Virus record (IMG/VR): IMGVR_UViG_3300020169_000135
Span: 1-21,784 of that record
DNA: 21,784 nucleotides
Direction: 5' to 3' (one strand)
From: a virus
The position numbers and the translations under genes were made by a program. Shown piece by piece: positions 2,485 to 21,701 of the stretch (position 1 is the stretch's first letter; the number at the start of each line of letters is the position of its first letter). Below the pieces are notes generated by a model. The model saw only the letters and a list, made by a program, of their open reading frames with translations. It was not told the origin of the DNA and did not search any database.

Positions 2485-2485
2485 T

Positions 2486-5484: not shown

Positions 5485-5485
5485 T

Positions 5486-5749: not shown

Positions 5750-5750
5750 C

Positions 5751-7450: not shown

Positions 7451-7454
7451 TGTA

Positions 7455-7757
7455 ATGGAAACAGTTAAGGAACTATTAGAGTCAATTTGTGTTCGAGAAG
7501 GTTATGAAGTTGACGAAGATATAATGATTGAGTTTCTGGAAGATGCTAATGTAGTATATACAGGTGAAAGAGATGTACATAGATGGTATATTATTGAAGA
7601 TGTAGTAGTAGAGTTAGAGGGTTACTACATAGCTTGGTATAACTATATTATCACAGGAGATGGCTGTATGTCTGATATGGATTTAGAATATGACCTAGAC
7701 GCAGCTTACTTTGTAGAGAGAAAAGAACGAGAAATTGTGGAGGTGTACTACGAATAA
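7455..7757 (+). CDS. Hypothetical acidic protein, 100 aa
   Basis: Very acidic and rich in Tyr and Val (YNYIITGDGCMSDMDLEYDLDAAYF). It has an AGAGGG ribosome site and ends before the 60-base leader of the SSB-like gene, so it may be the last gene of the preceding transcription unit. No family recognised. Its charge contrasts with the basic protein just upstream; an interacting pair is possible but unproven. Confidence 0.7.
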   Translation: METVKELLESICVREGYEVDEDIMIEFLEDANVVYTGERDVHRWYIIEDVVVELEGYYIAWYNYIITGDGCMSDMDLEYDLDAAYFVERKEREIVEVYYE

Positions 7758-7817
7758 AGAACACTACCCACATATAATGAATAAATTAATTTAAATTAAA
7801 CTAAGAGGAAATACAAC
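7758..7817 (+). promoter_or_regulatory. AT-rich leader of the SSB-like gene, possible promoter
   Basis: One of the few gaps in the plus-strand block. It contains a perfect TATAAT at 7773-7778 but no convincing -35 box 16-18 bases upstream, so promoter status is weak. AAGAGGAAATA at the end is the ribosome site. A separate leader fits an SSB made in large amounts. The stretch from CATATAA to AAGAGGA resembles the leader at 15659-15688. Confidence 0.35.
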
Positions 7818-8975: not shown

Positions 8976-8983
8976 TATAACCC

Positions 8984-9001
8984 TTCCACAAGGACGTGGA
9001 A
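8984..9001 (+). promoter_or_regulatory. Hairpin between SSB-like gene and exonuclease gene
   Basis: A six-base perfect stem, TTCCAC (8984-8989) and GTGGAA (8996-9001), closes the six-base loop AAGGAC. The loop itself is Shine-Dalgarno-like. There is no T-run after it, so it is unlikely to be a simple intrinsic terminator; it may tune translation or mRNA processing between an abundant SSB and a less needed exonuclease. Confidence 0.45.
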
Positions 9002-9019
9002 TGAATTTGAGGAATGATT

Positions 9020-10150
9020 ATGGCATTGAAGAAGAATGGTACAAACAAGAATAGCGATAAAATCAGGGATGTACTTAATCCTGATAATGATCTAGTAGCT
9101 GTTATAGATGGGGATTATATTATATTCAAGGCAGCAGCCGTTGCAGATGAACATTTTATAACAGCTACACATACTAAATCTAATACCAGTAAAGAGTTTA
9201 AGAATGTAACAGAGTTTAAAGGCAGAGGTAAGGTATTAGGAGGCTGGCTAGGAGAGCAGAACGAGAAACGTATTAAGAAAGATAAGCCACTATTAGCACT
9301 TGAAGATTTCACTATAGTTAAAAGTGTAAGACGTGAGAAGAAAGAGGATGCAGATGGTAATACACTTACAGATGAAGAGACATTAGCTCACTACTTCTAC
9401 AGTGCCAGAACACTACTCACATCTGTACTAAAAGAACTAGGTGCTAGCGATTATGTAATGTACATTGGAGGTAAGGAAGAGTTCAGGTTACATAAATCCA
9501 AACTAATGAAGTATAAAGGTAATCGTGATGATATGCAGAAGCCTATTATCTTTAAAGAGATGAGGCAATATGCTATAGATCATTTAGGAGCTAAGGTAGT
9601 CGAAGGTATTGAGGTAGATGATCAAGTTATTATAGATGCTTATGGTAAAGATAATCATGTTGTTGTTGCTATTGATAAAGATACTATGGCACAACCTGTT
9701 AAAGCATTCAATCCAGATAAAAGTGATTTAGGTATTATTGATTGTACAGGACTAGGCGAGTTAAGAATTGAATTACAAGGTACTGCTAAAACTAAAGTAC
9801 TAAAAGGGTATGGCTACAAGTTCATGTTGGCTCAATTAGTACTAGGAGATAAAGCCGATAATTATAAACCTACTTGTAAATCAAATATTAAGTTTGGAGA
9901 TGTAAAAGCTTATGAACTATTACATGATATTACCAGTGAGAAAGAAGGGTTAGAACGTGTAATAGAGCAGTATAAGTTATTCTATCCAGAGCCTATTGTG
10001 ACAGAAGATTGGCAAGGGAATTCTATGCAGATAAATTGGTTGAGTGTATTGGAGGAGATATTTGTCATGGTGAATATGCAGAGAGTAGAGAATGATACTC
10101 GGAGTGTGTTTACGGAGTTTACTAAGTATGGAGTGATATATGAGTATTGA
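9020..10150 (+). CDS. 5'-3' exonuclease (FEN/PIN-like), 376 aa
   Basis: Likely removes RNA primers or resects DNA during phage replication and host DNA breakdown, as T7 gp6 and T5 D15 do. Visible signatures are the acidic pair VIDGDY (D30, D32), the YKGNRDDMQKP stretch matching the arch/YKxxR region of phage exonucleases, EVDDQVIIDAY and VVVAIDKDTM (metal-binding acids), then LGDKADNYKPTCKSNIKFG (helix-hairpin-helix-like region with GDxxDN). I place the start at 9020 because GAGGA at 9009-9013 is six bases ahead of it; an in-frame ATG at 9014 would be too close. It overlaps the next gene by 11 bases. The family is confident; the exact substrate is inferred. Confidence 0.88.
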   Translation: MALKKNGTNKNSDKIRDVLNPDNDLVAVIDGDYIIFKAAAVADEHFITATHTKSNTSKEFKNVTEFKGRGKVLGGWLGEQNEKRIKKDKPLLALEDFTIVKSVRREKKEDADGNTLTDEETLAHYFYSARTLLTSVLKELGASDYVMYIGGKEEFRLHKSKLMKYKGNRDDMQKPIIFKEMRQYAIDHLGAKVVEGIEVDDQVIIDAYGKDNHVVVAIDKDTMAQPVKAFNPDKSDLGIIDCTGLGELRIELQGTAKTKVLKGYGYKFMLAQLVLGDKADNYKPTCKSNIKFGDVKAYELLHDITSEKEGLERVIEQYKLFYPEPIVTEDWQGNSMQINWLSVLEEIFVMVNMQRVENDTRSVFTEFTKYGVIYEY

Positions 10151-10556
10151 TATAGATAAAACATTAGAAGATTATAAAGAATTACGTCTTATTATTATAG
10201 AAGAAAGAGAGAGGGTACAACAGGAGGTATTAGTTTTATTAAAGATTGCAAAAGATGAGTATAACAGTAAGAACTGGTTTATGAAATTGTACTACAGTTG
10301 TCAAACATTGATTACTGCCCATAACTTACTAAGTAATGTAGGGATAGGATGTCAATATCTTTTTAAAGTAACAGATAATCATTTCTTATTTTCTCACAGA
10401 ATGTTGGAAGCTTGGTGTAATGAGGATCCAAGACTCTCCCTAGAGGATATTAAGGAAGAAGATATAAGTGAGGATATTTTTCAATCTATACTGGAATTTG
10501 TCAACTGGGCTAAAGTATATAATAGATTTGTAATAAAGTGCCGTGTTAACCAATGA
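10140..10556 (+). CDS. Hypothetical protein, 138 aa
   Basis: A mostly helical protein with an acidic, Glu-rich N-terminus (IIIEERERVQQEV). No family or active-site motif is recognised. It overlaps the end of the exonuclease by 11 bases and the next start by ATGA, so it is translated with them. The cysteines are scattered and do not form a metal pattern. Confidence 0.7.
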   Translation: MSIDIDKTLEDYKELRLIIIEERERVQQEVLVLLKIAKDEYNSKNWFMKLYYSCQTLITAHNLLSNVGIGCQYLFKVTDNHFLFSHRMLEAWCNEDPRLSLEDIKEEDISEDIFQSILEFVNWAKVYNRFVIKCRVNQ

Positions 10557-10768
10557 AACAAGTAGCAATACTATACAAAGGTGATAAACCATCTTATCCA
10601 GAAGTAGAAGATATGGAATATACATACATTGAAGCTGCATCTAGTATAACTGGAATGGAATTTGATATGTTATTAGTAGATGAGTTAGCTAGTGTAGACA
10701 AGGAACTTTTCAAAAAGGCAGTAAAGCAAGTTAAGTATCATCCATCTGAACTATTTAAGGAGGAGTAA
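10553..10768 (+). CDS. Hypothetical protein, 71 aa
   Basis: A small soluble protein starting at an ATGA overlap. It has an alternating hydrophobic strand (VAILYKG) and a second one (FDMLLVDELASVDKEL), resembling a fragment of an alpha/beta fold, but no named domain is recognised. Confidence 0.7.
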   Translation: MKQVAILYKGDKPSYPEVEDMEYTYIEAASSITGMEFDMLLVDELASVDKELFKKAVKQVKYHPSELFKEE

Positions 10769-10771
10769 ACC

Positions 10772-11005
10772 ATGGCACCTAATGAAGCACATACTTTCTT
10801 AATGGAATCTATAGATAAGGCATACTCTAACCTGATAGAGAAATCAAATAAACCTAAAGGTATTAAGTTTATAAAAACCCCTGACAATGATTTTATAGAG
10901 GGATTTACTATAGACTATGATGAGGGCATGATTACATCTATACAGTTAAGAGGCAGTATTAAACAAATAACAATAGAGGGTACATTAGATTATGAAGACA
11001 TTTAG
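10772..11005 (+). CDS. Hypothetical protein, 77 aa
   Basis: Starts at an ATG behind the strong ribosome site AAGGAGGAG. The N-terminal part is helical and the C-terminal part is beta-rich (FIEGFTIDYDEGMITSIQL). No family recognised. It ends inside the following gene by a short overlap. Confidence 0.7.
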   Translation: MAPNEAHTFLMESIDKAYSNLIEKSNKPKGIKFIKTPDNDFIEGFTIDYDEGMITSIQLRGSIKQITIEGTLDYEDI

Positions 11006-11174
11006 TATGAGTCAATATCCAAACAAGGAGACACTATTAGCTGCCAGAGTGGGGTATCTCACAGGATTTACTATGGAGTTATTAGATAGACTAATAGAGT
11101 TAAAAGAAGTAGAACTAGATGAAGAGTCTGGTGAATATTATTGGACAGATACGGGATATAATATTTATGAGTAA
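10992..11174 (+). CDS. Hypothetical protein, 60 aa (or 55 aa)
   Basis: A small acidic protein, Glu-rich in the second half (IELKEVELDEESGEYYW). Two in-frame starts are possible: 10992, which has AGAGGG 11 bases upstream and overlaps the previous gene, and 11007, just after the previous stop but with a weaker ribosome site. The start is therefore uncertain. The stop overlaps the MazG-like gene by eight bases (ATGAGTAA). Function unknown. Confidence 0.6.
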   Translation: MKTFSMSQYPNKETLLAARVGYLTGFTMELLDRLIELKEVELDEESGEYYWTDTGYNIYE

Positions 11175-11529
11175 TACAGAACAAGAGTTTAATAAGATGG
11201 TGTCTAATCTGGTTAAGTCTGGAGAGGATATACTACAAGAACTAACACCAGAACAAGCACATCTGTTACACATGGCTGTAGGGGCATCTGGAGAGTCTGG
11301 GGAATTACTAGATGCTATTAAGAAATACACTATCTACCAGAAAGAATTAGACCTAATAAATGTAATTGAAGAGATTGGGGATATTTACTTCTACTTACAA
11401 GGTATCGAAGCTGCACTGGGACTAACACGAGAAGAGATACTACGAGGGAATATTGTTAAGCTTAGTAAGCGATACAGTGGAGGTAGTTATAGTAATGAGC
11501 AAGCTAAGGTGAGGGCTGATAAGGTATGA
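11167..11529 (+). CDS. MazG-like nucleotide pyrophosphohydrolase, 120 aa
   Basis: An all-alpha NTP pyrophosphohydrolase that would hydrolyse (d)NTPs, or possibly (p)ppGpp, to monophosphate and pyrophosphate. The magnesium-binding signature is intact: E43xxE46 (GESGELLDA) and E69xxD72 (EEIGDIYFYL), followed by the family-typical KRYSGGSYSNEQA near the end. Phage MazG-like enzymes are usually thought to adjust nucleotide pools or blunt the host starvation response. I choose the ATG at 11167 because it forms the eight-base ATGAGTAA overlap seen elsewhere here and matches the usual compact size; an in-frame ATG at 11119 would add 16 atypical residues. Confidence 0.9.
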   Translation: MSNTEQEFNKMVSNLVKSGEDILQELTPEQAHLLHMAVGASGESGELLDAIKKYTIYQKELDLINVIEEIGDIYFYLQGIEAALGLTREEILRGNIVKLSKRYSGGSYSNEQAKVRADKV

Positions 11530-11801
11530 GTGAAGAATATACCTTACTGGAGTTAAGCGTAGTAAGCGGGAAACTAAGCCTACTTAATTCCTATGTAAAG
11601 ATGTTAGATAATACTAGCCTACGATTGGTGAAGAAGTATATAGATGAGAGGATTGATGCTCAATTAAAAGAGGAGTACGATATAAGAGATACTAATACGT
11701 ATAAGGAAGTACTTGATTCTAACAGTAGTATAGATTGGAGGTACTATAGATATATCATTAATGAGGATGGAGATGGGTTGTGTATGGGGATTATTAAATG
11801 A
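11526..11801 (+). CDS. Hypothetical protein, 91 aa
   Basis: Linked by ATGA overlaps to the MazG-like gene before it and the HNH gene after it. The N-terminal half is leucine-rich and helical (LLELSVVSGKLSLLNSYVKM). The C-terminal half is tyrosine-rich (YRYIINEDGDGLCMGIIK). No known domain is recognised. Confidence 0.7.
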   Translation: MSEEYTLLELSVVSGKLSLLNSYVKMLDNTSLRLVKKYIDERIDAQLKEEYDIRDTNTYKEVLDSNSSIDWRYYRYIINEDGDGLCMGIIK

Positions 11802-12328
11802 GTAAAAAACTCTGGGAATTATACCCAGATATCTGGCCTACTAAATCATCCTTCTTTACATTCTTACGGGGATCATTAAGACGTGCTGTATGGGAGAAAT
11901 ACCCAGTTAAATTACAGTTTAAGAATGAGCAATGTGATCCACCACCTGCGGGGTACACTGGAAGAGCTAAATCTGGAACTAATTGTGCATTAACAGGAGA
12001 ATGGGAAGGTAAGAGTAAACTGGAAGTAGATCACATTGAAGGTAATGTAAGTCTACAAGATTGGGAGGATGTATTACCATTCATTGAACATCTATGTGCG
12101 TCTAAGGATAATCTACAATTAGTCACAAAGGCAGCACATAAGATTAAGAGCTATGCAGATAGGATGGGTATTACATTCGAGGAGGCTAGCGTTATTAAGG
12201 AGGCTATATCTATTTGTAAGATTAAAGGTAATGATAAAGTGTGGTTAAAAGCTAGCGGTATTATCCCAGATAGTAATGCAGCTAAACGTAGGAAGCAAGT
12301 TGAAGATAAACTGAGGAGTAGTGTATGA
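11798..12328 (+). CDS. HNH-family endonuclease-like protein, 176 aa
   Basis: The centre carries an HNH-type core: C63 begins CALTGEW, then EVDHIEGN (D78, H79), and NLQLVTKAAHKIKSYA with H114 in the place of the last metal ligand. A partner cysteine at C46 (EQCDPPP) may help hold the fold. This layout, with a long C-terminal helical tail rich in Lys, is common in phage HNH proteins that nick or cut DNA. Whether it is a homing enzyme, a recombination or packaging nuclease, or a host-DNA degrader is not decided by the sequence. It sits mid-operon, coupled by ATGA on both sides, which argues for a resident gene rather than a recent insertion. Confidence 0.78.
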   Translation: MSKKLWELYPDIWPTKSSFFTFLRGSLRRAVWEKYPVKLQFKNEQCDPPPAGYTGRAKSGTNCALTGEWEGKSKLEVDHIEGNVSLQDWEDVLPFIEHLCASKDNLQLVTKAAHKIKSYADRMGITFEEASVIKEAISICKIKGNDKVWLKASGIIPDSNAAKRRKQVEDKLRSSV

Positions 12329-12498
12329 GGGAGGAAACTAAATTACAACTAATAAACTTAGGAGATGCCTTAGTCTACCATAATGGAGAGGAGATATATA
12401 AACTAGAACAGGATGATGTAACATACTATAAAGATGCAGCTATTAAGTTTCTTAAAGATAGAGGTTGCTTATTTGAAGAATTGATAGAGGAGGATTAA
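12325..12498 (+). CDS. Small hypothetical protein, 57 aa
   Basis: Begins at an ATGA overlap with the HNH gene and ends at a TAA two bases before the next ATG. The protein is acidic, with TKLQLINLGDALVYHNGEEI near the start and a Glu-rich end (LFEELIEED). Its tail supplies GAGGAGGAT, the ribosome site for the following gene. Position and coupling support it; no function is recognised. Confidence 0.65.
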   Translation: MREETKLQLINLGDALVYHNGEEIYKLEQDDVTYYKDAAIKFLKDRGCLFEELIEED

Positions 12499-12499
12499 C

Positions 12500-12667
12500 A
12501 TGTCCAATAATTATGTACAAGAAATGATTAAAGAGTTAAACCACTTAGAGCGGAATGATCGTAGTAAATATCCACTCCTTAAAGAGTTAATTAAATCAGT
12601 AGGAGAATTACAGCAAGAAGTATCTAATCTAAAATCACAATTAAATACAATTGGGAAGAATATATGA
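12500..12667 (+). CDS. Small coiled-coil protein, 55 aa
   Basis: Follows a strong ribosome site (GAGGAGG) and overlaps the metallophosphoesterase start as ATGA. The C-terminal half has heptad-like spacing (SVGELQQEVSNLKSQL), suggesting a dimeric coiled coil, and the N-terminal half is charged and helical. The coupling to the phosphoesterase could mean a partner or adaptor, but this is only positional evidence. Confidence 0.65.
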   Translation: MSNNYVQEMIKELNHLERNDRSKYPLLKELIKSVGELQQEVSNLKSQLNTIGKNI

Positions 12668-13746
12668 GTAGTTTAAAAGATGATGAAGTGAAGTTGCAGG
12701 TAGTTAAGTTGGATGAAGGTGGATACACGCAGTATAAGATAGAAGAGATTACTAAGATACCACAATCAACTATTTCAGATTTCTTGAGTAAGAGAACATA
12801 TACGAAATGGTGGAGTGAATATGAGAGCGATAAGGCAGTAGATAATATGATTAAAGCATATGAGGATACAAAACCTACACCTGCAAATTTTGATAGAAAG
12901 TATGAGGTAGTTATTGATAAACCTCTTATGAAGATTGAAACTACAGTAGGCGATATTGCAGATGATTGTACACACTTTGTCATTCCAGATACGCAAGTAA
13001 GGCCAGACATCAGCTTAGATTATTTACACTGGGTTGGTATGTATATTGCTAATCGAAAACCAGATGTAATCATTCATCTAGGGGATCATGCAGACATGCC
13101 ATCGTTATCTAGTTATGATAAAGGAAAGCGTTCAGCAGAAGGTAAGCGATTACATGAAGATATTAAATCAGCAATAGATGGTATGCAGGTACTGCTAAAA
13201 CCTCTATATGATCTACAACAACAGGAGTTAGCTGAGTATGGAGAGATCAGATATAAACCTCGTATGGTGTTTACATTAGGTAATCATGAGTTTAGGATTA
13301 TGAGGCACGTAGATTCCAACCCTGAGTTACACGGCTTCTTTGGCTATGATGATCTCAAATATAAAGAACAAGGTTGGGAAGTGTATGATTTCTTGAAGCC
13401 AGTGATTGTAAATGGTGTCACATATGTACACTTTATGGCGAACCCCATGAGTGGAAAGCCCTACGGAGGAGCAGCACTTAATGTACTAAAGAATGTAGGG
13501 GAATCATTTACACAAGGTCATAAGCAAACCTTAGATGTAGCTACACGTTTCCTTCCCAGCAGTGGTAAGCAGCAATGGGCTATTATTGCAGGAGCTTGTT
13601 ATGTACATGATGAGGACTACAAGGGATATCAAGGTAATAAACATTGGAGAGGTGTTGTAGTTAAACATAATGTAATTGAAGGTAGCTTCAATCCTATGTT
13701 TGTAGACTTAGATTATTTAGGTAAAAGGTATGAAAAAAGTAATTAA
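12664..13746 (+). CDS. Calcineurin-like metallophosphoesterase with N-terminal HTH, 360 aa
   Basis: Residues 21-44 (YTQYKIEEITKIPQSTISDF) fit a helix-turn-helix of the kind found in small DNA-binding domains. After a linker, a calcineurin-like phosphoesterase domain shows its motifs in order: PDTQ (D109, Q111), LGDHAD (D141, D144), GNHE (206-209, N207 and H208), YVHF (H256) and GHKQ (H286, with Q288 taking the place of the more usual second His). Two metal ions would be bound and a phosphoester bond cut; phage members are implicated in DNA or nucleotide processing. The DNA-binding fusion argues for a DNA-directed substrate, which is inference. It overlaps the homing-type endonuclease downstream by 17 bases. 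Confidence 0.87.
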   Translation: MSSLKDDEVKLQVVKLDEGGYTQYKIEEITKIPQSTISDFLSKRTYTKWWSEYESDKAVDNMIKAYEDTKPTPANFDRKYEVVIDKPLMKIETTVGDIADDCTHFVIPDTQVRPDISLDYLHWVGMYIANRKPDVIIHLGDHADMPSLSSYDKGKRSAEGKRLHEDIKSAIDGMQVLLKPLYDLQQQELAEYGEIRYKPRMVFTLGNHEFRIMRHVDSNPELHGFFGYDDLKYKEQGWEVYDFLKPVIVNGVTYVHFMANPMSGKPYGGAALNVLKNVGESFTQGHKQTLDVATRFLPSSGKQQWAIIAGACYVHDEDYKGYQGNKHWRGVVVKHNVIEGSFNPMFVDLDYLGKRYEKSN

Positions 13747-14413
13747 CCTTGTAGGTAAGACGTTCGGGAGGTTAAGTGTGATTAAGAGGGTTAATAAGAG
13801 AGGGCAGAAGGGAGAAATCTCGTGGTTATGTAAATGCGAGTGTGGCGTAGAGGTGGTTGTACTAGGGGCTTCTTTAAGGAGTGGCAATACAGCGAGCTGT
13901 GGATGCCTGCATAAGGAATCTATTACTAAGATAAAAACTACTCATGGGTTATGTAAACACCCTCTTTACATAGTATGGAAGAATATGAGGATTCGGTGTA
14001 CTAGCTTAGGAAACAAGAGCTATCTTAATTATGGAGGCAGGGGTATCGCTGTGTGTGATAGATGGCTAGAATCTTTCGAGAATTTCTATAATGATGTTAT
14101 AGGAGGTTACAAAAAAGGTTTACAACTAGATAGAATAGACAATGATGGTAACTATGAACCTAGTAATTGTAGGTGGGTGACTAGAAATCAGAATCAGATG
14201 AATACCAGATCTGCTGAAAACTCTACTAGTATGTATAAAGGAGTGAGCTTACGTAGAGGAGATGGTAAGTGGGTATCTCAGATAAGTAAGAATGGTAAGA
14301 AATACTACTTAGGTTACTTCACCTGTGAAAAGAAAGCCGCTTTGGTCTATAATGAAAAAGCTAAGGAGTTATTCGGAGAATATGCCAGTTTAAATAAAAT
14401 AGAGGAAAATTAA
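13730..14413 (+). CDS. HNH homing-type endonuclease with AP2 domain, 227 aa
   Basis: Domains in order: an N-terminal LVGKTFGRLSVIKRV module with a cysteine cluster (C34, C36, C38, C57, C59), common in phage endonucleases; an HNH-like core YGGRGIAVCDRW then LDRIDNDGNYEPSNCRW (about 101-150); and a C-terminal AP2 DNA-binding domain, MYKGVSLRRGDGKWVSQIS to about residue 222. This is the layout of mobile HNH-AP2 enzymes that spread by cutting related genomes at a specific site. The start lies 17 bases inside the phosphoesterase gene, in another frame, and the next gene begins one base after its stop, so it is a free-standing passenger squeezed between genes with little or no loss. Its opening stretch looks somewhat G-richer than its neighbours by eye. 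Confidence 0.88.
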   Translation: MKKVINLVGKTFGRLSVIKRVNKRGQKGEISWLCKCECGVEVVVLGASLRSGNTASCGCLHKESITKIKTTHGLCKHPLYIVWKNMRIRCTSLGNKSYLNYGGRGIAVCDRWLESFENFYNDVIGGYKKGLQLDRIDNDGNYEPSNCRWVTRNQNQMNTRSAENSTSMYKGVSLRRGDGKWVSQISKNGKKYYLGYFTCEKKAALVYNEKAKELFGEYASLNKIEEN

Positions 14414-14414
14414 T

Positions 14415-14660
14415 ATGAATGAAGAATTAGACAGTACAATAATTACATACCAATCTCCTTATGAGAATGCTTTCTCTGTTAATCCTCATATAGAGACTTG
14501 GCCTGAGTTGATAATTGAATTTAGCAAGGTATTAAATAAAGCTGACTATTCTGTGCCTATTGACTTAATAGGAGAAGCTGTGTATAGTGCTAGGGACAAG
14601 TTTCGAGTTAGGTTAAACAACAAGAAACTAGAAGGTCAATTAGACTTACCATTGGAGTAG
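14415..14660 (+). CDS. Hypothetical protein, 81 aa
   Basis: Small acidic soluble protein with a GAGGAAAA ribosome site. No domain is recognised; the middle is helical (LIIEFSKVLNKADYSVPIDL) and the end is a mixed polar tail (GQLDLPLE). It sits between the homing-type endonuclease and the HAD nucleotidase and is separated from each by only a few bases. Confidence 0.7.
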   Translation: MNEELDSTIITYQSPYENAFSVNPHIETWPELIIEFSKVLNKADYSVPIDLIGEAVYSARDKFRVRLNNKKLEGQLDLPLE

Positions 14661-14663
14661 TAT

Positions 14664-15275
14664 ATGAGTAAAGGTATTATTGGAGTAGATATAGACTTAA
14701 CAGTGGCAGACAGTGACATAAGCCACTGGAATTGGTTACAACAAGTCTCTAGAAATGGTGATGGATTATGTATGCCTAAAGGGAGCAGTACAGAGCTATT
14801 AAACTATGACTTAGGATCTTACTTCGATCTACCTAATCACTTAGATAGTATGGACTTCTGGAGATTATCTGATATATACGATGAGAGGCCAGAAGAAACT
14901 CCTTTATATATTACTAAGCAAATACAAGGTAGGACTATACAACCTATTAAGAATAGTGTACAATGCCTACAGTCATTATCTTCCCAAGGATGGGAGATTG
15001 TATTTGTATCACATGTTAAGGGTAATCATCATAAGAGTAAGGTAAATTGGCTTAAACGTCACTTTCCTTTCATGGATGGATTTATTGCTACTCAAGAGAA
15101 ACATTATGTTAATTGTGATGTGTTTATAGATGATAGGCATAATCATTTGAATATAATGGATGCTTACTGTAAGATAAAGTTTGACACAGTGTATGAACAG
15201 AGTGTAGAATTAGGACATGTAAGTTTGATTAGTAATGATTGGGTTGAAATTGAAGAGTTTATTAATAAATTATAG
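14664..15275 (+). CDS. HAD-family 5'(3')-deoxyribonucleotidase-like protein, 203 aa
   Basis: Would remove phosphate from (deoxy)nucleoside monophosphates or a related substrate. HAD motif I is intact: VDIDLTV with nucleophile D9, acid/base D11 and T13. Motif II is the Ser in VFVSHVKG, a lysine (HHKSKVNWLK) serves as motif III, and motif IV is the acidic pair D156-D157 in VFIDDRHNH. The fold order and about 200-residue size match phage-encoded NT5C-like enzymes. With the MazG-like enzyme and the dNMP kinase it forms a dispersed nucleotide-pool set. The substrate is inferred, not read. Confidence 0.83.
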   Translation: MSKGIIGVDIDLTVADSDISHWNWLQQVSRNGDGLCMPKGSSTELLNYDLGSYFDLPNHLDSMDFWRLSDIYDERPEETPLYITKQIQGRTIQPIKNSVQCLQSLSSQGWEIVFVSHVKGNHHKSKVNWLKRHFPFMDGFIATQEKHYVNCDVFIDDRHNHLNIMDAYCKIKFDTVYEQSVELGHVSLISNDWVEIEEFINKL

Positions 15276-15287
15276 AGGAGTGAGGTT

Positions 15288-15554
15288 ATGAGTACAGTAG
15301 ATGGGTTATTACTATTCTGGCTACTACCTAGTTTAATAACGTTATGGCTGTGGATAATCCTCAACAGGGTATTAGATAGTAAGGAACCCAGAGATTATGA
15401 TGGAGAATGTTGGTCTATATTATTAGGAGCTGCGCTTCTATACCCATTAGGTCTATCTATTATAATACTCCTAGTATTATGTACTCTATTGGAGGAACCT
15501 TGTAAAGTATTATTCAACATACTAGCCAAAGAGATCAAGTTTAAACGGGATTAA
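15288..15554 (+). CDS. Two-helix membrane protein, 88 aa (copy 1 of a pair)
   Basis: Hydrophobic helices at about 6-26 and 42-66 are joined by a charged loop (LDSKEPRDYDGECW) and followed by a basic tail (AKEIKFKRD). The ribosome site is TAGAGGAGTGAGG. Its stop (TAA, 15552-15554) touches the first base of the conserved noncoding element. The protein at 18007-18231 has the same size class, two helices and the similar second-helix shape xxxILLxxxxxxPL, and also sits directly ahead of a copy of that element, so the two are probably paralogues. Function unknown. Confidence 0.8.
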   Translation: MSTVDGLLLFWLLPSLITLWLWIILNRVLDSKEPRDYDGECWSILLGAALLYPLGLSIIILLVLCTLLEEPCKVLFNILAKEIKFKRD

Positions 15555-15660
15555 AACATGCCCCTACAAGCTCCATATCTCCATCCTAAGCAACGTTTGA
15601 CGTTTAGTAGTAGGGTAGTTAAGGTATAAATAAGAGTGGCTTAGAGAGGCTTACAAGAGC
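15554..15660 (+). repeat. Conserved 107-nt noncoding element, copy A
   Basis: This aligns with 18237-18343 over 107 positions without a gap, 71 identities (66%) by my hand count. The best-conserved blocks are AAACAT plus CCCCTA at the start, TAGGGTAG in the middle and AGAGGCTTACA at 15645-15655. Foldable pairs: CCCTAC (15562-15567) with GTAGGG (15610-15615), and an inner hairpin AACGT/ACGTT (15592-15596, 15600-15604). Bases after 15660, up to 15688, are AT-rich with CATATAA and an AAGAGGA ribosome site for the next gene. No open frame of useful length is seen in the gap. Whether it works as RNA, promoter, terminator or binding site is not decided. Confidence 0.75.
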
Positions 15661-15688
15661 ATATAACATTAATTAAGAGGAATAAATT

Positions 15689-16048
15689 ATGAGTGGAATT
15701 GAGATTGGGCTGGTAGTATGTATAGTAATTATGTTTATTGTAATGTGTATGATGAAAGCCGAGATTAGGGAGGCTGATGTTAAATTTGAAAAATATGATG
15801 ATAACCATAGGGATGCCTTAGCTAATAGTAGCACTGGCCTGCATGAAGTAAATAGGGAGTTAAAAAAGCAATTAGGTTATGATACAGTTACCAGTACTTA
15901 CTCTGGTCGTACAAGTTTTCATAAGCCAGATAAATCAGTACACCAACGTATCAATCTTCTAATGGATCATCTAAACCTAGAGATTAAAGAGGGTGAGCCT
16001 AGTAAGACTACATTAGTTAAGAAGAAGCCAGTTAAACGGGGTAAGTGA
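15689..16048 (+). CDS. Membrane-anchored hypothetical protein, 119 aa
   Basis: The N-terminus has one strong hydrophobic segment (about residues 4-22, IEIGLVVCIVIMFIVMCMM), then a polar, basic soluble domain ending KKKPVKRGK. The AAGAGGA ribosome site lies just ahead of the ATG at the end of the intergenic element. Not recognised. It could be an anchored cytoplasmic protein or, less likely, a secreted precursor, as no clear signal-peptidase site is visible. Confidence 0.75.
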   Translation: MSGIEIGLVVCIVIMFIVMCMMKAEIREADVKFEKYDDNHRDALANSSTGLHEVNRELKKQLGYDTVTSTYSGRTSFHKPDKSVHQRINLLMDHLNLEIKEGEPSKTTLVKKKPVKRGK

Positions 16049-16050
16049 TT

Positions 16051-16410
16051 ATGACTAAAGGTATTACATTAACAAAAGAACAAGCGAAACACTTTGAGAG
16101 TATTAAGTGGTTGTATAGTAATAAAATGAAAGATAGAGCATCAGGTAGAACTACTTTAGTCTTATTAACCTTAATAGATGAAGCTGTTACTAGATTAGGG
16201 CAAAGAGTATATTTAAGAAATTATGGAATAAAAGAAGGAAGGGGGTCTTCTTATACTATAAATCAATTGCATCATTTATTAGACAAGGTTCTGGATGATA
16301 GAGCTTATGATTACAAGTTTAGGACATCTGATATGAGTTTAATAGTAGATAGGTATCCTTTAAATAGTGATTTGTTTAGAAAGGACGGGAGTGTTATATA
16401 CTATGACTAA
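16051..16410 (+). CDS. Hypothetical protein, 119 aa
   Basis: I start it at ATG 16051, ahead of which is GGGGTAAG; an in-frame GTG at 16045 would overlap the previous gene. A segment, MKDRASGRTTLVLLTLIDEA, looks like a degenerate P-loop or strand-turn-helix start, but no complete ATPase motif follows. The rest is basic and tyrosine-rich. Unrecognised. Its stop overlaps the dNMP kinase start by eight bases. Confidence 0.65.
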   Translation: MTKGITLTKEQAKHFESIKWLYSNKMKDRASGRTTLVLLTLIDEAVTRLGQRVYLRNYGIKEGRGSSYTINQLHHLLDKVLDDRAYDYKFRTSDMSLIVDRYPLNSDLFRKDGSVIYYD

Positions 16411-17059
16411 TCTATCAGGCAAAGTAATTATACTAAACTCCCCCAAGGACAGCGGGAAGGATACTATTGCTGATGCTATTTGCAGTAAGCTAAAAGAAGT
16501 TAAACATAGACGATTCAAAGATAAATTATATGAGTGTACAGCTACATTATTTAACTGGGACTTGGCTACCTTCATATATGCAGCTAATCATCGAGTATTA
16601 AAAGAAGAACCTGTTGCAACATTAGCCATACCAAGTATAGAGTTTCATAAGATTACAGCTCTAACTAAATCTAATAGAGCATTTACAATAGATGCTAATT
16701 ATAATGTTCCTATCTCTCCTAGAGAGGCATTAATATATGTATCTGAGGTTGTAATTAAGCCTAGGTTTGGAGATAAGTACTTTGGATTAGCTGCTGCTAG
16801 TTCTATTAAAGAAGATGTAGGTGGTAGTGTATTTAGTGATGGAGGTTTCCAAGAGGAACTATCGCCCATTGTAGATGTCGTAGGAGAAGAGAATGTATAT
16901 ATTGTACAATTCACTAGAGGTGATAAGAAAGACTTCTTAGGAGATAGTAGGGATTGGTTACAAGCTTATGGCAATATACACTTGCTTAATACAACTAATG
17001 ATGGCACAATAGATGAAATTGTAGAGGAGATATTGGAGTGGATAGAGAGTGAAGTTTAA
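16403..17059 (+). CDS. Deoxynucleoside monophosphate kinase-like P-loop protein, 218 aa
   Basis: Would phosphorylate dNMPs released by host DNA breakdown to feed phage DNA synthesis. Walker A is seen near the start as NSPKDSGKDTIAD, with K19 and T21; the Asp after the Lys is typical of the T4 gp1/T5 dNMP kinase group. Later parts include DANYNVPISPREAL and a C-terminal helix (DEIVEEILEWIESEV). I choose the ATG at 16403, which gives the common eight-base ATGACTAA overlap and drops 12 atypical residues added by an earlier in-frame ATG. The family is fairly sure; base specificity cannot be read. Confidence 0.8.
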   Translation: MTNLSGKVIILNSPKDSGKDTIADAICSKLKEVKHRRFKDKLYECTATLFNWDLATFIYAANHRVLKEEPVATLAIPSIEFHKITALTKSNRAFTIDANYNVPISPREALIYVSEVVIKPRFGDKYFGLAAASSIKEDVGGSVFSDGGFQEELSPIVDVVGEENVYIVQFTRGDKKDFLGDSRDWLQAYGNIHLLNTTNDGTIDEIVEEILEWIESEV

Positions 17060-17273
17060 GAGTGATAAAGAAAGGTGTTATGTAATACTAAATACATATA
17101 TGAAACACTATATGAATACAAAGGAGAACTTGCCAGAGGATAAGTTGATTAAGCGATACAGTCATACATGGGAGTTTAAGAAGTTAGTTATATCCTATCG
17201 TATTTACAGCTTGTATAATAAGATTAAAGATGGTATTATGATAGCCTATTTAAAATATATAGTGAGGATGTAA
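17049..17273 (+). CDS. Hypothetical basic protein, 74 aa (GTG start)
   Basis: The frame opens with GTG at 17049, 11 bases before the end of the dNMP kinase, behind TTGGAG. The first in-frame ATG is 17 codons later and has no ribosome site, so GTG is the better start. The protein is strongly basic, with many Lys and Tyr residues (YSHTWEFKKLVISYRIYSL). It is unrecognised. Charge and size would fit nucleic-acid or membrane-surface binding, both guesses. Confidence 0.6.
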   Translation: MKFKSDKERCYVILNTYMKHYMNTKENLPEDKLIKRYSHTWEFKKLVISYRIYSLYNKIKDGIMIAYLKYIVRM

Positions 17274-17274
17274 T

Positions 17275-17508
17275 ATGACTAAGTATTATGATTGTATTGG
17301 TACAGAGGTGAAGGTGGGAGATAGTGTTGTCTTTGCAGAGGACGAAAGTATGGACTTATTAATGGGACAGGTCAGCAAATTACCACCTACAGAAGAATAC
17401 AAGATGTCAGGTAATAATGTATTTGAAGTATTATATGGTGGCCTAATCTACAGACGTTTCAAGAGTGAGATATGTTACATAACCACATTAAATGAATTGG
17501 GAGAGTAA
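17275..17508 (+). CDS. Hypothetical protein, 77 aa
   Basis: Has a GAGGATG ribosome site. The pattern YDCIGTEVKVGDSVVFAEDE and a following strand (LMGQVSKL) fit a small SH3-like barrel; such tiny barrel proteins occur in many phages without known function. One of three short genes in a row with no visible enzyme motif. Confidence 0.65.
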   Translation: MTKYYDCIGTEVKVGDSVVFAEDESMDLLMGQVSKLPPTEEYKMSGNNVFEVLYGGLIYRRFKSEICYITTLNELGE

Positions 17509-17509
17509 G

Positions 17510-18010
17510 ATGAATAGTATTAAACTATTAGCCGGAGAATACTCATTAGACTACCTTGCAAGTCTAGTTGCCGACAGATTGGGTGAGCAAATCTGCCAAA
17601 CAAGTAATCCTTATAAACCTAAGTTCCCTAAGTGGGAAGAGCTAGGGCAGATTAAGGGGTGGTATGTAGATGACAGTAGTGAGTTAGATAGTATATCCTT
17701 TGATGCTGGTAGTCTACTACTAGACCCTTGTGACAAGAATGTATGGCCTACTAAAGAGCTAGCAGAGGCATCCTTAGCCTTATCACAATTAGCTCAATTA
17801 CGTGATTATGTGAATGGCGATTGGAAGCCAGCTTGGACTGCTGATTATACTACCAAGTATATTATTTATTGTAATACATCAGGGATTTTAGATTGTTATG
17901 AGGGTGAAAACATAACTCAACACTTCTTAGCATTCAAAGATGCAGAAACACGAGATGGATTCTTAGAAGCTTATCGTGACTTAATTGAAGTTGCTAAACC
18001 TTTATTATGA
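17510..18010 (+). CDS. Conserved phage-type protein with WPTKELAEASLALSQLAQL motif, 166 aa
   Basis: Start at 17510 is preceded by GGGAGAG; an in-frame ATG at 17492 lies inside the upstream gene. The middle, WPTKELAEASLALSQLAQL (79-97), followed by GDWKPAWTADYTTKYII and FLEAYRDLIEVAKPLL at the end, matches a family I know from many phage and prophage genomes as a protein of unknown function. It is soluble and the C-terminal part is helical. No catalytic residues are evident. It overlaps the following membrane gene as ATGA. Confidence 0.75.
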   Translation: MNSIKLLAGEYSLDYLASLVADRLGEQICQTSNPYKPKFPKWEELGQIKGWYVDDSSELDSISFDAGSLLLDPCDKNVWPTKELAEASLALSQLAQLRDYVNGDWKPAWTADYTTKYIIYCNTSGILDCYEGENITQHFLAFKDAETRDGFLEAYRDLIEVAKPLL

Positions 18011-18231
18011 TTACTGTAGAAACATCCTATTTACTAATAGGATTAATTATATCTCTACTTTATACCAGTTACTTGAGGTATAAGAATCTGAGTTATTTAA
18101 TTAGAGAAGAGTGGTTTTTGATACTACTTATTATAATGTATTGGCCTCTTGCCTTTGTAGTATTCATATTGAATTTAATCTACACTATGGATAAGTATAT
18201 AGAAGATAATAAACTGTTATTTAGGAAATAG
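18007..18231 (+). CDS. Two-helix membrane protein, 74 aa (copy 2 of a pair)
   Basis: Helices at about 6-22 and 37-60 separated by a basic loop (RYKNLSYLIREEW), with a polar C-terminal tail (DKYIEDNKLLFRK). Starts at an ATGA overlap. The arrangement and the second helix (LILLIIMYWPLAFVVFIL) resemble the 88-aa protein at 15288-15554. Like that gene, it is followed at once by a copy of the 107-nt noncoding element (five bases after its stop). This context is the main reason to suspect paralogy; sequence identity is low. Confidence 0.75.
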   Translation: MITVETSYLLIGLIISLLYTSYLRYKNLSYLIREEWFLILLIIMYWPLAFVVFILNLIYTMDKYIEDNKLLFRK

Positions 18232-18236
18232 TGTAT

Positions 18237-18343
18237 AAACATACCCCTAGAACGCCCTGCATTCCATTCTAAGAGCTTTTTAGCTTAAAGAGGTAGGGTA
18301 GCTAGGGGTGATATTAGATAGCCGTATAGAGGCTTACAGGAGC
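18237..18343 (+). repeat. Conserved 107-nt noncoding element, copy B
   Basis: Aligns ungapped to 15554-15660. Copy B shows the most evident fold: an eight-base perfect outer stem ACCCCTAG (18243-18250) with CTAGGGGT (18302-18309), the alternative shared stem CCCTA (18245-18249) with TAGGG (18294-18298), an inner hairpin AGCT-TTTT-AGCT (18274-18285), then AGCC/GGCT (18320-18323, 18331-18334) and TACA/TGTA (18335-18338, 18345-18348). The last encloses the GGAG ribosome site of the next gene, whose ATG is seven bases past the element. No coding frame of note lies in this 119-base gap. Confidence 0.75.
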
Positions 18344-18350
18344 TTGTAGA

Positions 18351-18746
18351 ATGAATAATGAGAAGTATGAAGGTACAGATAAGGTTATTGAAGTAGGAGA
18401 TAGGGTTATGTATATGGGGAGGATCGATGAGGTTATTAGAATAGATGAGTTTAATGGCTGTTACAATAACTATAAGCTAGAAGGAGAGGGCTATGTGGAA
18501 TATAATGAATTAGAATACCTAACAGGAACACCTCATAAACACAGGGACTTAATTATTGCATGGGCAAATGGAGCTGAGATTGAAGCACCGTCATCCATGG
18601 GTTGGTTCACAGTATCTAGCCCAAATTGGTATCCTAATGAGAAGTATCGTATTAAGCCATCTAAACCCTCTAAGCAATTAGAGAAAGAACGTATTCAGAA
18701 AGAGATGGAGAAATTAACTAAAGACTTAGAGGCATTAGATGTATGA
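18351..18746 (+). CDS. Hypothetical protein with HRDLIIAWANGAEIE and YRIKP motifs, 131 aa
   Basis: The central motif HRDLIIAWANGAEIE (64-78) followed by NWYPNEKYRIKP (92-103) occurs in many small phage proteins of unknown role. An N-terminal part begins VGDRVMYMGRIDEVIRID, which fits an SH3-like barrel, and the C-terminus is a charged coiled-coil-like helix (EKERIQKEMEKLTKDLEAL). Its ribosome site GGAG lies inside the TACA/TGTA hairpin of element copy B, so translation may be controlled by the fold of the element. Confidence 0.75.
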   Translation: MNNEKYEGTDKVIEVGDRVMYMGRIDEVIRIDEFNGCYNNYKLEGEGYVEYNELEYLTGTPHKHRDLIIAWANGAEIEAPSSMGWFTVSSPNWYPNEKYRIKPSKPSKQLEKERIQKEMEKLTKDLEALDV

Positions 18747-18934
18747 ATGATAAATACCTAATATCTTATAGACATAATCTCCCTTTTGCTACAGGTAGTA
18801 GTATTAAGGTAGGAACTAAGGAAGCTATAGAAGAGTTTATTAAGGATCACCCATCTTATACATACTACGGGGTATATAAGCATATTTCAAATGTGGAAAC
18901 TGTTGCTACTATTAACTGGGAAGGTGACGCGTGA
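18743..18934 (+). CDS. Hypothetical protein, 63 aa (tandem paralogue 1)
   Basis: Starts at an ATGA overlap. Small alpha/beta-looking protein with KYLISYRHNL at the start, a helix (TKEAIEEFIKDH) and strands ending GVYKHISNVETVATINWEG. It aligns with the 59-aa protein at 18959-19138, mainly through KY[LI], the TKEAIEE/TLKELED helix, VYK, an ET pair and a near-terminal Trp, suggesting a tandem duplication. No function known. Confidence 0.65.
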   Translation: MNDKYLISYRHNLPFATGSSIKVGTKEAIEEFIKDHPSYTYYGVYKHISNVETVATINWEGDA

Positions 18935-18958
18935 TTATAGCAGATAGAGGGTTATAAG

Positions 18959-19138
18959 ATGACTTGTAAATATATAGCTATTGATAATAGAGAAAGGACA
19001 CCTTGTATAAGAGCAGAAGCAAAAACCTTGAAGGAATTGGAGGATATAATTGTAGCTAATAATTATATAGGGGAAGTAAAAGTATACAAATATGCTAGTA
19101 CCTTGGAAACAAGCTTAAATTTTGAGTGGAAGGACTGA
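18959..19138 (+). CDS. Hypothetical protein, 59 aa (tandem paralogue 2)
   Basis: A short gene from ATG 18959 to TGA 19136-19138, with AGAGGG nine bases upstream. It reads CKYIAIDN, then a helix (TLKELEDIIVANN) and a strand region VKVYKYASTLETSLNFEWK. It resembles the preceding 63-aa protein over most of its length. It fills the gap between two same-strand genes and its own tail provides AAGGA, the ribosome site of the next gene. Confidence 0.65.
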   Translation: MTCKYIAIDNRERTPCIRAEAKTLKELEDIIVANNYIGEVKVYKYASTLETSLNFEWKD

Positions 19139-19140
19139 AT

Positions 19141-19320
19141 ATGATTACAGCAGCAGAACGTGAAGCAGAGTTTAGGAAGGATTTAAAGGAGTTGTTACTT
19201 AAACATGGAGCTACATTAGATGTAGATTATGATAGAAACATAGTTGTTTCTATGTATGCTATAATGGGAGATATGACTAGAGATATCAAGAAAGAATATA
19301 CCGAATTTAAAATAAATTAA
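19141..19320 (+). CDS. Hypothetical protein, 59 aa
   Basis: The ATG at 19141 has GGAAGGA just upstream and starts two bases after the previous stop; a GTG at 19126 would overlap that gene. The N-terminal half is a charged helix (AEREAEFRKDLKELLLKH) and the second half is strand-like (IVVSMYAIMGDM). No family recognised. Confidence 0.65.
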   Translation: MITAAEREAEFRKDLKELLLKHGATLDVDYDRNIVVSMYAIMGDMTRDIKKEYTEFKIN

Positions 19321-19347
19321 TAATCCTATAACATAAGAAACAATAAT

Positions 19348-19785
19348 ATGACAGCAGTAGCGGAGTTAACACTTGTGGTAGATAATGAAGAGTCATTTAA
19401 GAAAGAATTATTTAATCAGATTATGGAGACAGGAGACCATACAGCAGAGGAAGCCTTCACATTAGTTAATAAACGATTAGCTATAGAGAAGGAAGTGAGG
19501 ACATTTCGTAGAGGTATTAAAGTGCCTAGACAATTACCATTAGAATTAGTAGATGTAGATCACCCAGAGATAGATAAGATATTATTCAATGCTGGATTTG
19601 ATACGATTGGTTCTAAGTGGATTATAGATATCTGCTGTTATACATGGCAAGGTAAGATGAAGTGTGGCCCTATTGTATTAGGTACAGAGAGATTAGATAA
19701 GAAGTGGCTACAGAGTGGTAATCGAAGTGACGATGCCTTTCATTATCTGACTAAAGATATTGTGCGAGAGGGGATGAAACGATGA
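19348..19785 (+). CDS. Hypothetical protein, 145 aa
   Basis: Unrecognised soluble protein. It has a charged helical N-terminal half (FKKELFNQIMETGDHTAEEA) and a C-terminal half with two adjacent cysteines (IDICCYTW) and a third (KMKCGPIVL). The ribosome site is weak (AAGAAA), unlike its neighbours, so it may be made at a low level or need an upstream signal; an AT-rich 27-base gap precedes it. Ends with an ATGA overlap. Confidence 0.7.
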   Translation: MTAVAELTLVVDNEESFKKELFNQIMETGDHTAEEAFTLVNKRLAIEKEVRTFRRGIKVPRQLPLELVDVDHPEIDKILFNAGFDTIGSKWIIDICCYTWQGKMKCGPIVLGTERLDKKWLQSGNRSDDAFHYLTKDIVREGMKR

Positions 19786-20042
19786 GTAATGATAGGATAA
19801 TTAGACTTAGTGATAATAGTTATAAGTTCACTATACATCCTGTGGCAACAGGTTATGGTATTAAGTACATAGTTAAAGAACATAAGTTATTTGGTAAGTA
19901 TTTAAAGTTACATCACAGAGGTTATGCTTTCACTTGTGTTGTTAAAGAGTCAGCTACTAAGTGGTCTAATATAGAGAATATAAACAATGCATTAAGTGAT
20001 GCATTTGGTGGTAACTTTACAATAGTAGATAATTATTTATAG
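19782..20042 (+). CDS. Hypothetical basic protein, 86 aa
   Basis: A basic protein with alternating hydrophobic and polar residues (YKFTIHPVATGYGIKYIV), probably beta-rich, plus a C-terminal helix (IENINNALSDAFGG). Starts at an ATGA overlap. No family recognised. Confidence 0.7.
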   Translation: MSNDRIIRLSDNSYKFTIHPVATGYGIKYIVKEHKLFGKYLKLHHRGYAFTCVVKESATKWSNIENINNALSDAFGGNFTIVDNYL

Positions 20043-20264: not shown

Positions 20265-20320
20265 ACCCCAGAGGGGTAGAGTAGAACCAGATTATAAACC
20301 TAAAGGGCTATCACAGCCCT
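20265..20320. terminator. Two hairpins at the convergent gene junction, probable terminators
   Basis: Two GC-rich stems lie between the plus-strand and minus-strand gene blocks. The first is ACCCC (20265-20269) with GGGGT (20273-20277), loop AGA. The second is AGGGCT (20304-20309) with AGCCCT (20315-20320), loop ATCAC. Read on the minus strand, the second is followed by TTAGGTTTATAA, a moderate T-rich run. On the plus strand no strong T-run follows either stem. Their place at the meeting point of two operons makes termination the natural role. The minus-strand gene's stop codon touches the second stem. Confidence 0.6.
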
Positions 20321-20726
20321 AATCCATTTTATCCATAACCTTACTGAATGTATCCTGTAACATCTTAGACATAGTTTCTTGTGCTACTATAGCATCTTTT
20401 ATCTTCTGCTGAGATTCCTTGTTAAGCTGATTAAGCTCCTCTCCTCTCTTCTCACATTTATCTAAAGAAACCCTGACTTCTGCTAATACTTTATTAGCTC
20501 TCTTCTCTCTAGCTTCGCAAGCTTCCCTTCCTTCCTTATTCTTATCTAACTCTTTCTTAATACGTGCATTACTCTTACAATTCTGTTTCCACATTAGGAA
20601 TATACCTAGCACTGCAAACAGAGCAGCAAATGCTAGTGTGAGGGTTAATAACGTTGCACTACCTCCTAACCCTCCTCCTACTATTAGATTTGTTTCTCTT
20701 ACGAGTCCTTCTGTTTCTCTGAGCAT
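20319..20726 (-). CDS. Single-pass membrane protein with long coiled coil, 135 aa
   Basis: One hydrophobic helix at about residues 25-46 (LLTLTLAFAALFAVLGIFLM), then a long charged stretch with heptad-like spacing (RIKKELDKNKEGREACEARE to about residue 125), typical of coiled coil. Three cysteines lie after the helix. An inner-membrane spanin is a possible reading given its place in a likely lysis/late region, but the positive residues just after the helix predict the coiled coil on the cytoplasmic side, opposite to a spanin. It overlaps the upstream membrane gene by 28 bases, implying coupled translation. Confidence 0.75.
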   Translation of the reverse strand: MLRETEGLVRETNLIVGGGLGGSATLLTLTLAFAALFAVLGIFLMWKQNCKSNARIKKELDKNKEGREACEAREKRANKVLAEVRVSLDKCEKRGEELNQLNKESQQKIKDAIVAQETMSKMLQDTFSKVMDKMD

Positions 20727-21259
20727 TTCTCCATACCTTTAAAGCACACACTAGAATTAAGAACTGTATCACCAATAAACTGTAATACTCCATTTCCGAC
20801 ATACTGTTCCCTATCTTCTTTATCATATAGAATGTATATAGCTACTAGATAGAATAGAATAAGTAGTGTATTGTATATCCAATTCTCCCCTAATAGTGTA
20901 GTTAAGGATACACCTGTGTTATCAAATATACTATTACTGAGGTGTATATAATGATACTCAAACCAACTATCAGCTCCTAGTATATTTAACATTACCTCTG
21001 CAATAGAGAAGTAAACTACCCTATCTCTCAGGGTAGAATCCTCTAACCATGCTATGATAGTTATTACTGTAAATGCAGCCATAGAGTTGAATAGGTGTAT
21101 CTGGGGCATAGGTAGATTATATATCAACTTACCTACCACATAAGGTACAACTGCTGCTGCTACGAATAACAGGCTAATACCAGCACCTTGTTTAGTAGGA
21201 TGGGTCACTGCATAGTATAAGCAAATACATATAAGAATAGTCCAGAGAGTAACAAACAT
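20699..21259 (-). CDS. Multi-pass membrane protein, 186 aa
   Basis: About five hydrophobic segments can be seen (roughly 1-17, 26-47, 57-71, 81-95 and 125-146), followed by a polar tail (YDKEDREQYVGNGVLQFIGD). It has no signal I can use to name a family. GTGAGGAAG, the ribosome site, lies inside the preceding mini-ORF. Overlap with the coiled-coil membrane gene suggests the two work together, perhaps in lysis or membrane remodelling; holins are usually smaller, so this is not a confident holin call. Confidence 0.75.
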   Translation of the reverse strand: MFVTLWTILICICLYYAVTHPTKQGAGISLLFVAAAVVPYVVGKLIYNLPMPQIHLFNSMAAFTVITIIAWLEDSTLRDRVVYFSIAEVMLNILGADSWFEYHYIHLSNSIFDNTGVSLTTLLGENWIYNTLLILFYLVAIYILYDKEDREQYVGNGVLQFIGDTVLNSSVCFKGMEKCSEKQKDS

Positions 21260-21264
21260 TATTA

Positions 21265-21324
21265 TTACTTCCTCACTTTAGGTTTATCTGCACTTTCACG
21301 TGGTGTTGAGCTTGGACCTGACAT
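21265..21324 (-). CDS. 19-codon mini-ORF ahead of the membrane gene
   Basis: ATG at 21324 with GAGAGAGTAAG upstream, running to TAA at 21265-21267, encoding MSGPSSTPRESADKPKVRK. It lies just after a good sigma70 promoter and its end carries the ribosome site of the following membrane gene, as expected of a leader peptide or coupling ORF. Strongly basic, with no hydrophobic part. A chance ORF cannot be excluded at this length. Confidence 0.45.
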   Translation of the reverse strand: MSGPSSTPRESADKPKVRK

Positions 21325-21367
21325 ACACTTACTCTCTCTTGTTAGTTATTGATTAATTTGACTCTTG

Positions 21368-21396
21368 ATGCTATCACATATAGGATATAAAGTCAA
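21368..21396 (-). promoter_or_regulatory. Sigma70-type promoter for the minus-strand membrane genes
   Basis: Read on the minus strand: TTGACT (21391-21396), a spacer of exactly 17 bases, then TAGCAT (21368-21373). This is five of six at -35 and four of six at -10 against TTGACA/TATAAT. It points at the mini-ORF and the two membrane genes and would be read by host RNA polymerase. The 21267-21413 gap has no other gene. Confidence 0.7.
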
Positions 21397-21400
21397 GCGT

Positions 21401-21416
21401 TAATAATCTATTATTA
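21401..21416. promoter_or_regulatory. Perfect AT palindrome next to the -35 box
   Basis: TAATAAT (21401-21407) and ATTATTA (21410-21416) are perfect inverted 7-base arms with two bases between. It sits four bases beyond the -35 box of the minus-strand promoter and overlaps the stop codon of the gene upstream. It could bind a dimeric regulator, or be chance in AT-rich DNA. Confidence 0.35.
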
Positions 21417-21701
21417 TACTAATTGTACAGTTATTGTAGAGCCAATAGTAGAAGATCTAGCCTTGCACCATATCTTTAAACTATTAGTAGGGATATAACG
21501 TTCTGCATATCCTTGTTCATTAGTAGTAATAGGGATTCCATCTTTAGAATCTGCTGCTGGAGTAGTTGTAGATTCTATTGCAAGTATTTCTCCATTCCCC
21601 TTATTACTAATAGAGAATGCCACACCTACTGTGATACCACTTACTGTATTCACATCTACCCATGTTTGACCAATAGTTATATCTGCTATAGTTGCTGCCA
21701 T
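21414..21701 (-). CDS. Small probable virion-associated protein, 95 aa
   Basis: Compact protein with the beginning MAATIADITIGQTWVDVNTVSGITVGV, alternating beta-type residues, many Thr/Ser/Gly and no hydrophobic helix. Short proteins that start in this way, with W-V-D-x-N, a small loop and G-x-x-V-G, are frequent in phage head/tail regions and usually have no assigned role; I infer a minor structural protein such as a head-surface or tail-associated piece. It follows another gene five bases after its stop with GAGGGTAAATAA as ribosome site. Confidence 0.7.
   Translation of the reverse strand: MAATIADITIGQTWVDVNTVSGITVGVAFSISNKGNGEILAIESTTTPAADSKDGIPITTNEQGYAERYIPTNSLKIWCKARSSTIGSTITVQLV

Follow-up and report, generated by a model that had tools for sequence, protein, structure and literature searches.

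The question raised by this locus is what is carried twice in the intergenic DNA of a phage, and whether it acts as RNA or as DNA. The stretch analysed, called the window here, is a 21.8 kb virus record (21,784 nucleotides) that shows about 70% identity to Rheinheimera Barbavirus phages in its metallophosphatase region. A sequence-only reading had aligned positions 15554–15660 (copy A) with 18237–18343 (copy B) without gaps, had counted about 71 identities by hand over the 107 positions, and had seen in the pair the covariation of a structured RNA. The likeness was reproduced by an exact count (71/107, ungapped), and A or B placed elsewhere in the window finds at best 46–48 identities. Both copies are noncoding, as had been stated: copy A lies between an ORF that ends at 15554 and one that starts at 15689, and copy B between an ORF that ends at 18231 and one that starts at 18351. 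No tRNA was found, and no sigma-70-like promoter or terminator-like site (hairpin plus T run, −35/−10 boxes) overlaps either copy, which argues against the shared promoter/terminator pair that had been named as a possible source of the similarity. Elsewhere in the window, the ORF at 13730–14413 is homing endonuclease-like (HNH/AP2-type; its AP2 domain scores 26.7 bits, under the Pfam cut-off) and its region resembles HNH/AP2 genes of Staphylococcus phages; within 20319–21701, gene direction turns from + to −, with the right-end ORFs on the − strand.

Profile scores and pair offsets resolve the 107-nt element into two inverted 37-bp sites separated by a core of 31–33 bp, the true unit being 105 bp. 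The 37-bp profile was trained on 53 sites of other phages, with the window family left out. Over the window, three of the four arms that make up A and B score 30.8, 29.7, and 25.0 bits, all other positions score at most 4.5 bits, and 20 shuffles reach at most 12.9 bits. The remaining arm, on the left of copy A, scores best in exactly the matching register despite its −2.5 bits. The right site of copy B abuts the ATG at 18351 (ORF 18351–18746) and contains a Shine–Dalgarno-like GGAG. The parts of the two copies are as follows.

15563–15667, unstranded: copy A, two inverted 37-bp sites and a 31-bp core; 71/107 identities to B; orthologues in the related contigs G001, G004, and G005
15563–15599, − strand: left site of copy A, degenerate (−2.5 bits; 17/33 consensus positions), in the exact −68 register
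15600–15630, unstranded: core of copy A, which includes AGTAGTAGGGTAG; AGGGTAG is invariant in 16 copies
15631–15667, + strand: right site of copy A, 29.7 bits with the profile trained on other phages
18246–18350, unstranded: copy B, an inverted pair of 37-bp sites with a 31-bp core between them
18246–18282, − strand: left site of copy B, 30.8 bits, the top match in the window
18283–18313, unstranded: core of copy B, which includes GGTAGGGTAGCTAGGGG
18314–18350, + strand: right site of copy B, 25.0 bits

The consensus of the 37-bp site is TTAAAACCNCTTAGAATGGCTTACAGGGCNTTTTA, and its sub-motifs GCTTA, GGCTTACAG, and GCTTTTA recur every ~10 bp. Sites occur alone or as an inverted pair with a start-to-start offset of 68–71 bp, and the core between paired sites (31–33 bp) often contains TAGGGTA. 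An opposite-strand partner (at least 6 bits, within 150 bp) accompanies 26 of 137 nonredundant sites; 22 of these 26 partners lie at −68 to −71 (7, 12, 2, and 1, respectively), whereas same-strand controls are scattered. In the whole genome of Alteromonas phage V22, the best partner falls at exactly −69 for 7 of 12 sites, among 261 offsets; one or two V22 sites also belong to the training set, in which offsets were not used. Whole-genome scans of V22, Hena1, D254, and Muenster returned 27 sites of at least 15 bits, compared to none in reversed-sequence controls. The site is thus conserved and linear and its inverted spacing constrained, as would be looked for in an array of protein-binding sites. 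Within the site, the strongest couplings (96 sites) connect adjacent columns, AT/GA and GC/CG, rather than pairing columns, a pattern in keeping with recognition by a protein. A small local hairpin in the 37-bp site, for which an early permutation test had been positive, was discarded, as the 96-site couplings involve only neighbouring bases. By eye, a terminator-like hairpin with a T run replaces or fuses with the 5′ half of the element in several other phages (L292, L293, L297, L216, and L291).

Relatives of the two copies were collected by a pattern scan of IMG/VR and then with a profile built from seven, later fifteen, copies; coding chance matches (primase hits in L005, L007, L012, L014, and L015, and many short-pattern hits) were left out. 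At a cut-off of 60 bits there are 24 placements, spread over eight contigs of which the window is one; they comprise 16 distinct sequences, so that the further copies in related genomes on which the original claim depended do exist, between genes. Every close-family copy sits at a gene junction. Some share the orientation of the flanking genes (A and B in the window; G001 2547, 26363, and 28820) and others oppose it (G003 9649, G004 5519, G001 9103, G005 25098, and G006 5933 and 7171); in annotated phages, the element likewise occurs in both orientations to genes. At the A locus, the element is present in the window, G004, and G001 and absent from the homologous ORF88–kinase junction of G006, and the G006 5933 element is missing at the matching junction of G007; the flanks of homologous junctions are too diverged to reveal target-site duplications. 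At the A and B loci, orthologous copies are 87–91% identical, compared to 62–81% for the directly adjacent ORFs. Further out, the kinase encoded near A is 90% identical, and at a third locus one of the flanking ORFs is 94% identical, values that equal or exceed those of the element. Copies within one genome are 59–70% identical in G015 and 71% identical for A and B. In the relatives of the window, conservation of the element matches or exceeds that of most coding DNA around it, the picture being mixed. At 13475–14610 of L148 (contig G002, 32475–33610), two copies of like orientation lie on either side of an ORF for a 211-aa HNH endonuclease (phrog_953, E 1.9e-78).

The proposed covariation was not borne out by these copies, because the common fold lacks two-sided changes, the hairpin registers differ, and the arms are not specifically complementary to their own partners. 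RNAalifold on 16 copies returned 5 pairs at −2.29 kcal/mol with zero two-sided changes. The inner hairpins, said to lie in the same place, occupy different registers in the columns of alignment A2 (44–56 to 48–52 in A, 43–54 to 46–51 in B), and pair in only 54% (A) and 50% (B) of cells of the 16-sequence alignment. The CCCTA/TAGGG stem is kept in nearly all copies, as far as that part of the reading goes, but shows no two-sided change. For the outer arms, 66% of cells are paired, compared to 65.5% with shuffled partners, and in the window family the complementarity of an arm to its own partner is 9.7, compared to 10.3 to the arms of other copies (permutation, 1728/2000). The mean fold z-score is −1.6 for one strand and −1.2 for the other; copy B reaches −3.3 and G004_5524 −4.1, and copy A, at z about +0.5 to +1.2, is no more stable than shuffled versions of itself. 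A pseudoknot joining CCCCTA and TAGGGGT across the arms was dropped, with no covariation in its favour, and a one-way cis-regulator was ruled out because copies occur in both orientations to genes; the fixed orientation to a regulated gene that marks a structured cis-RNA is not seen. Rfam gave no family at the gathering threshold and nothing relevant at E ≤ 10, in agreement with the statement that no named RNA family applies. Overall, the sequence-only reading is partly supported: the noncoding element is real, the structured-RNA covariation is not.

Outside the close family, a short 3′-arm pattern matches many diverse phage contigs, often within a quasi-palindrome. A 35-nt consensus matches ~640 INPHARED records at a permissive threshold that includes chance matches; the better ones are intergenic and come from T5-like Vibrio phages, Serratia Kamaji, Salmonella UTK0009, Erwinia Hena1 and SNUABM_01, Klebsiella phi1_175008 and Muenster, and Alteromonas V22. 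In 18 such records, an 18-mer with up to 3 mismatches finds 44 matches, compared to 0 in the reversed control. The site is carried by T5-like, Vequintavirinae-type, jumbo, and marine phages, each genome having from one to several copies; most sites are intergenic, and some fall within ORFs. In several Vibrio phages (L298, L301, and L302), CRP-like sequences (TGTGATCTATGTCACG and similar) lie upstream of the site, and DnaA-box sequences (TTATCCACA) lie near the site in the T5-like phages L300, L301, and L305.

A search of 257 Gb of bacterial and archaeal genomes found 4 occurrences of the exact 18-mer, approximately the chance expectation, and scanning bacterial genomes with a spaced pattern yielded no match. 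One of the 4 occurrences (Erwinia typographi) scores 40.8 bits and adjoins small phage-like ORFs; weak matches are found in 82 of 5,426 E. coli genomes, the one inspected being near an integrase gene. A site for a host protein is disfavoured by the chance-level frequency of the exact 18-mer in bacterial genomes. Plasmids of the insect symbiont Arsenophonus nasoniae, including NZ_CP038615.1, carry the 35-nt consensus in 16 records at up to 91% identity, and one such copy (L337) is located downstream of a parM operon.

The sites are often found in the terminal-repeat or early region of the phage genome. In Klebsiella phage Muenster (347 kb; L366 = 1–20000), the 7 sites are all confined to the first 16.4 kb, within the annotated 20-kb terminal repeat; all 4 sites of D254 (117 kb) lie at 105–110 kb, beside a DNA-transfer gene, and all 4 of Hena1 (149 kb) in the last 13 kb. 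The first 14 kb of T5 (L341) contain one divergent solo site (9342–9378, 18.9 bits), which falls in the annotated injection stop signal at 9140–10149. In V22 the sites are dispersed genome-wide. No general rule of location is claimed.

Taken together, A and B are best explained as members of an intergenic DNA element widespread among tailed phages, a putative array of protein-binding sites that is presumably maintained by purifying selection; judged from sequence, this reading has about an even chance of being right. Orientation neutrality and fixed spacing make DNA the better reading than RNA. A simple model would have a protein bind each 37-bp site along one face of the helix. The binder would probably be encoded by the phage, given how rarely the site is found in bacterial chromosomes. 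Inverted paired sites would permit bridging across ~6.5 helical turns, and the resulting local nucleoprotein complex may control the genes on either side, often early ones, or how the terminal region is handled. Weighing against the DNA-site model are the degenerate left site of copy A, the sites within ORFs, the mixed conservation, and the absence of copy A from G006. The same is true of the likeness of arms within pairs, since a hairpin would produce it as well: across phages, paired arms are modestly more alike than swapped arms (26 pairs, 0/5000 permutations; GC-matched subset, 33/5000), which fits base pairing and two sites read by one protein alike.

The main rival is an old non-autonomous mobile repeat, MITE- or REP/ERIC-like, whose 37-bp arms would be transposase ends surviving in intergenic DNA. 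Its inverted arms at a defined spacing are those of a MITE, and the length of ~105 bp, the multiple copies per genome in either orientation, and the occurrence in unrelated phages are all in keeping with such an origin, as are the ORF88–kinase junction with the element in G004 and without it in G006, the G006 5933 element lacking at its G007 counterpart, and the HNH endonuclease gene found between two copies in G002 only. The pattern of divergence points the other way. Copies within a genome (59–71% identical) are as divergent as copies from different genomes, orthologues are 87–91% identical, and the recent near-identical pairs within a genome that amplification of a MITE would leave are missing; moreover, partnerless solo sites are highly conserved in T5-like phages. 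An incidental look, at flanks too diverged for duplications to show, noticed no target-site duplication or cognate transposase. A mobile origin is considered unlikely, though it is the leading alternative.

An RNA function could alternatively be rescued by a bidirectional hairpin: because the element is quasi-palindromic, a transcript of either strand could form an imperfect stem of ~37 bp that is processed or stabilises mRNA. The good folding of some copies (B, z = −3.3; G004_5524, z = −4.1) and the excess likeness of paired over swapped arms across phages would be accounted for, yet the predicted pairs show zero two-sided changes, the own-arm excess is absent in the window family, and copy A is unstructured. 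In addition, differences between arms show neither enrichment for G-U-keeping changes nor a strand preference, and the difference in folding energy between strands is mostly composition, which renders the hairpin quite improbable, more so than a mobile repeat. Least probable of all is that the similarity is explained by ordinary leader sequence or by a promoter/terminator pair common to both copies. Copy B does end at a start codon, with GGAG, and the 5′ half in other phages (L292, L293, and L297, for example, by eye) holds a terminator-like hairpin with a T run; neither window copy, however, holds a promoter- or terminator-like site, copies occur in both orientations to genes, and an inverted geometry of 68–71 bp is unlike a promoter layout.

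Among known systems, ERIC, RU-1, and related small mobile repeats of enterobacteria are dispersed, intergenic, imperfect palindromes of ~100–170 bp (PMC2759123). Compared by description, the element shares with them a dispersed, imperfectly palindromic, intergenic character in either orientation and differs in residing in phages and phage-like elements rather than bacteria, in its 37-bp site and 68–71 bp inverted geometry, and in its solo sites. REP and REPIN sequences, associated with RAYT transposases, are built from REPs of 20–40 bp with GTAG or CGTC tags (PMC3733652, PMC3116915). The element is likewise palindromic, intergenic, and multi-copy, but its unit is ~105 bp (37 + 31 + 37 bp) rather than a tagged palindrome of 20–40 bp. 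The T5 injection stop signal iss (AY543070) includes a divergent solo site of 18.9 bits within 9140–10149; iss is one region of T5, whereas the element is also found in phages without a described two-step injection. Mycobacteriophage stoperators and the start-associated sequences of cluster K are dispersed intergenic phage sites that are bound, or thought to be bound, by regulators. The element resembles them as a set of dispersed intergenic DNA sites, but they are short and confined to one phage group, whereas the element is long and crosses phage families. Finally, the arm-site arrangement of the attP of tyrosine recombinases resembles the element in layout only, both having a core flanked by inverted arms that carry tandem units of ~10 bp; the element differs in having several copies per lytic phage and no integrase shown. 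A search of open-licence papers by description or motif string found no account of the element, which is apparently undescribed.

More generally, it is rare for a conserved noncoding signal to be shared across phage families. Extending the protein-binding reading, the 37-bp site may tentatively be a phage-wide nucleoprotein signal, common to otherwise unrelated tailed phages and bound by a horizontally shared phage protein, that governs early takeover genes or the handling of incoming DNA ends. In several of these phages it would be concentrated in the early region, whether first-injected or terminal-repeat; this broader proposal is possible rather than probable. The question is directly testable, because isolates exist for several of the phages that carry the site (Alteromonas V22, Erwinia Hena1, Serratia Kamaji, and T5, whose site is divergent). 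Should it prove to be a mobile repeat, many phage lineages would have been invaded by a small mobile element. As a protein-bound signal, its fixed geometry and terminal or early clustering would provide a handle on how unrelated phages organise their early genes or incoming DNA.
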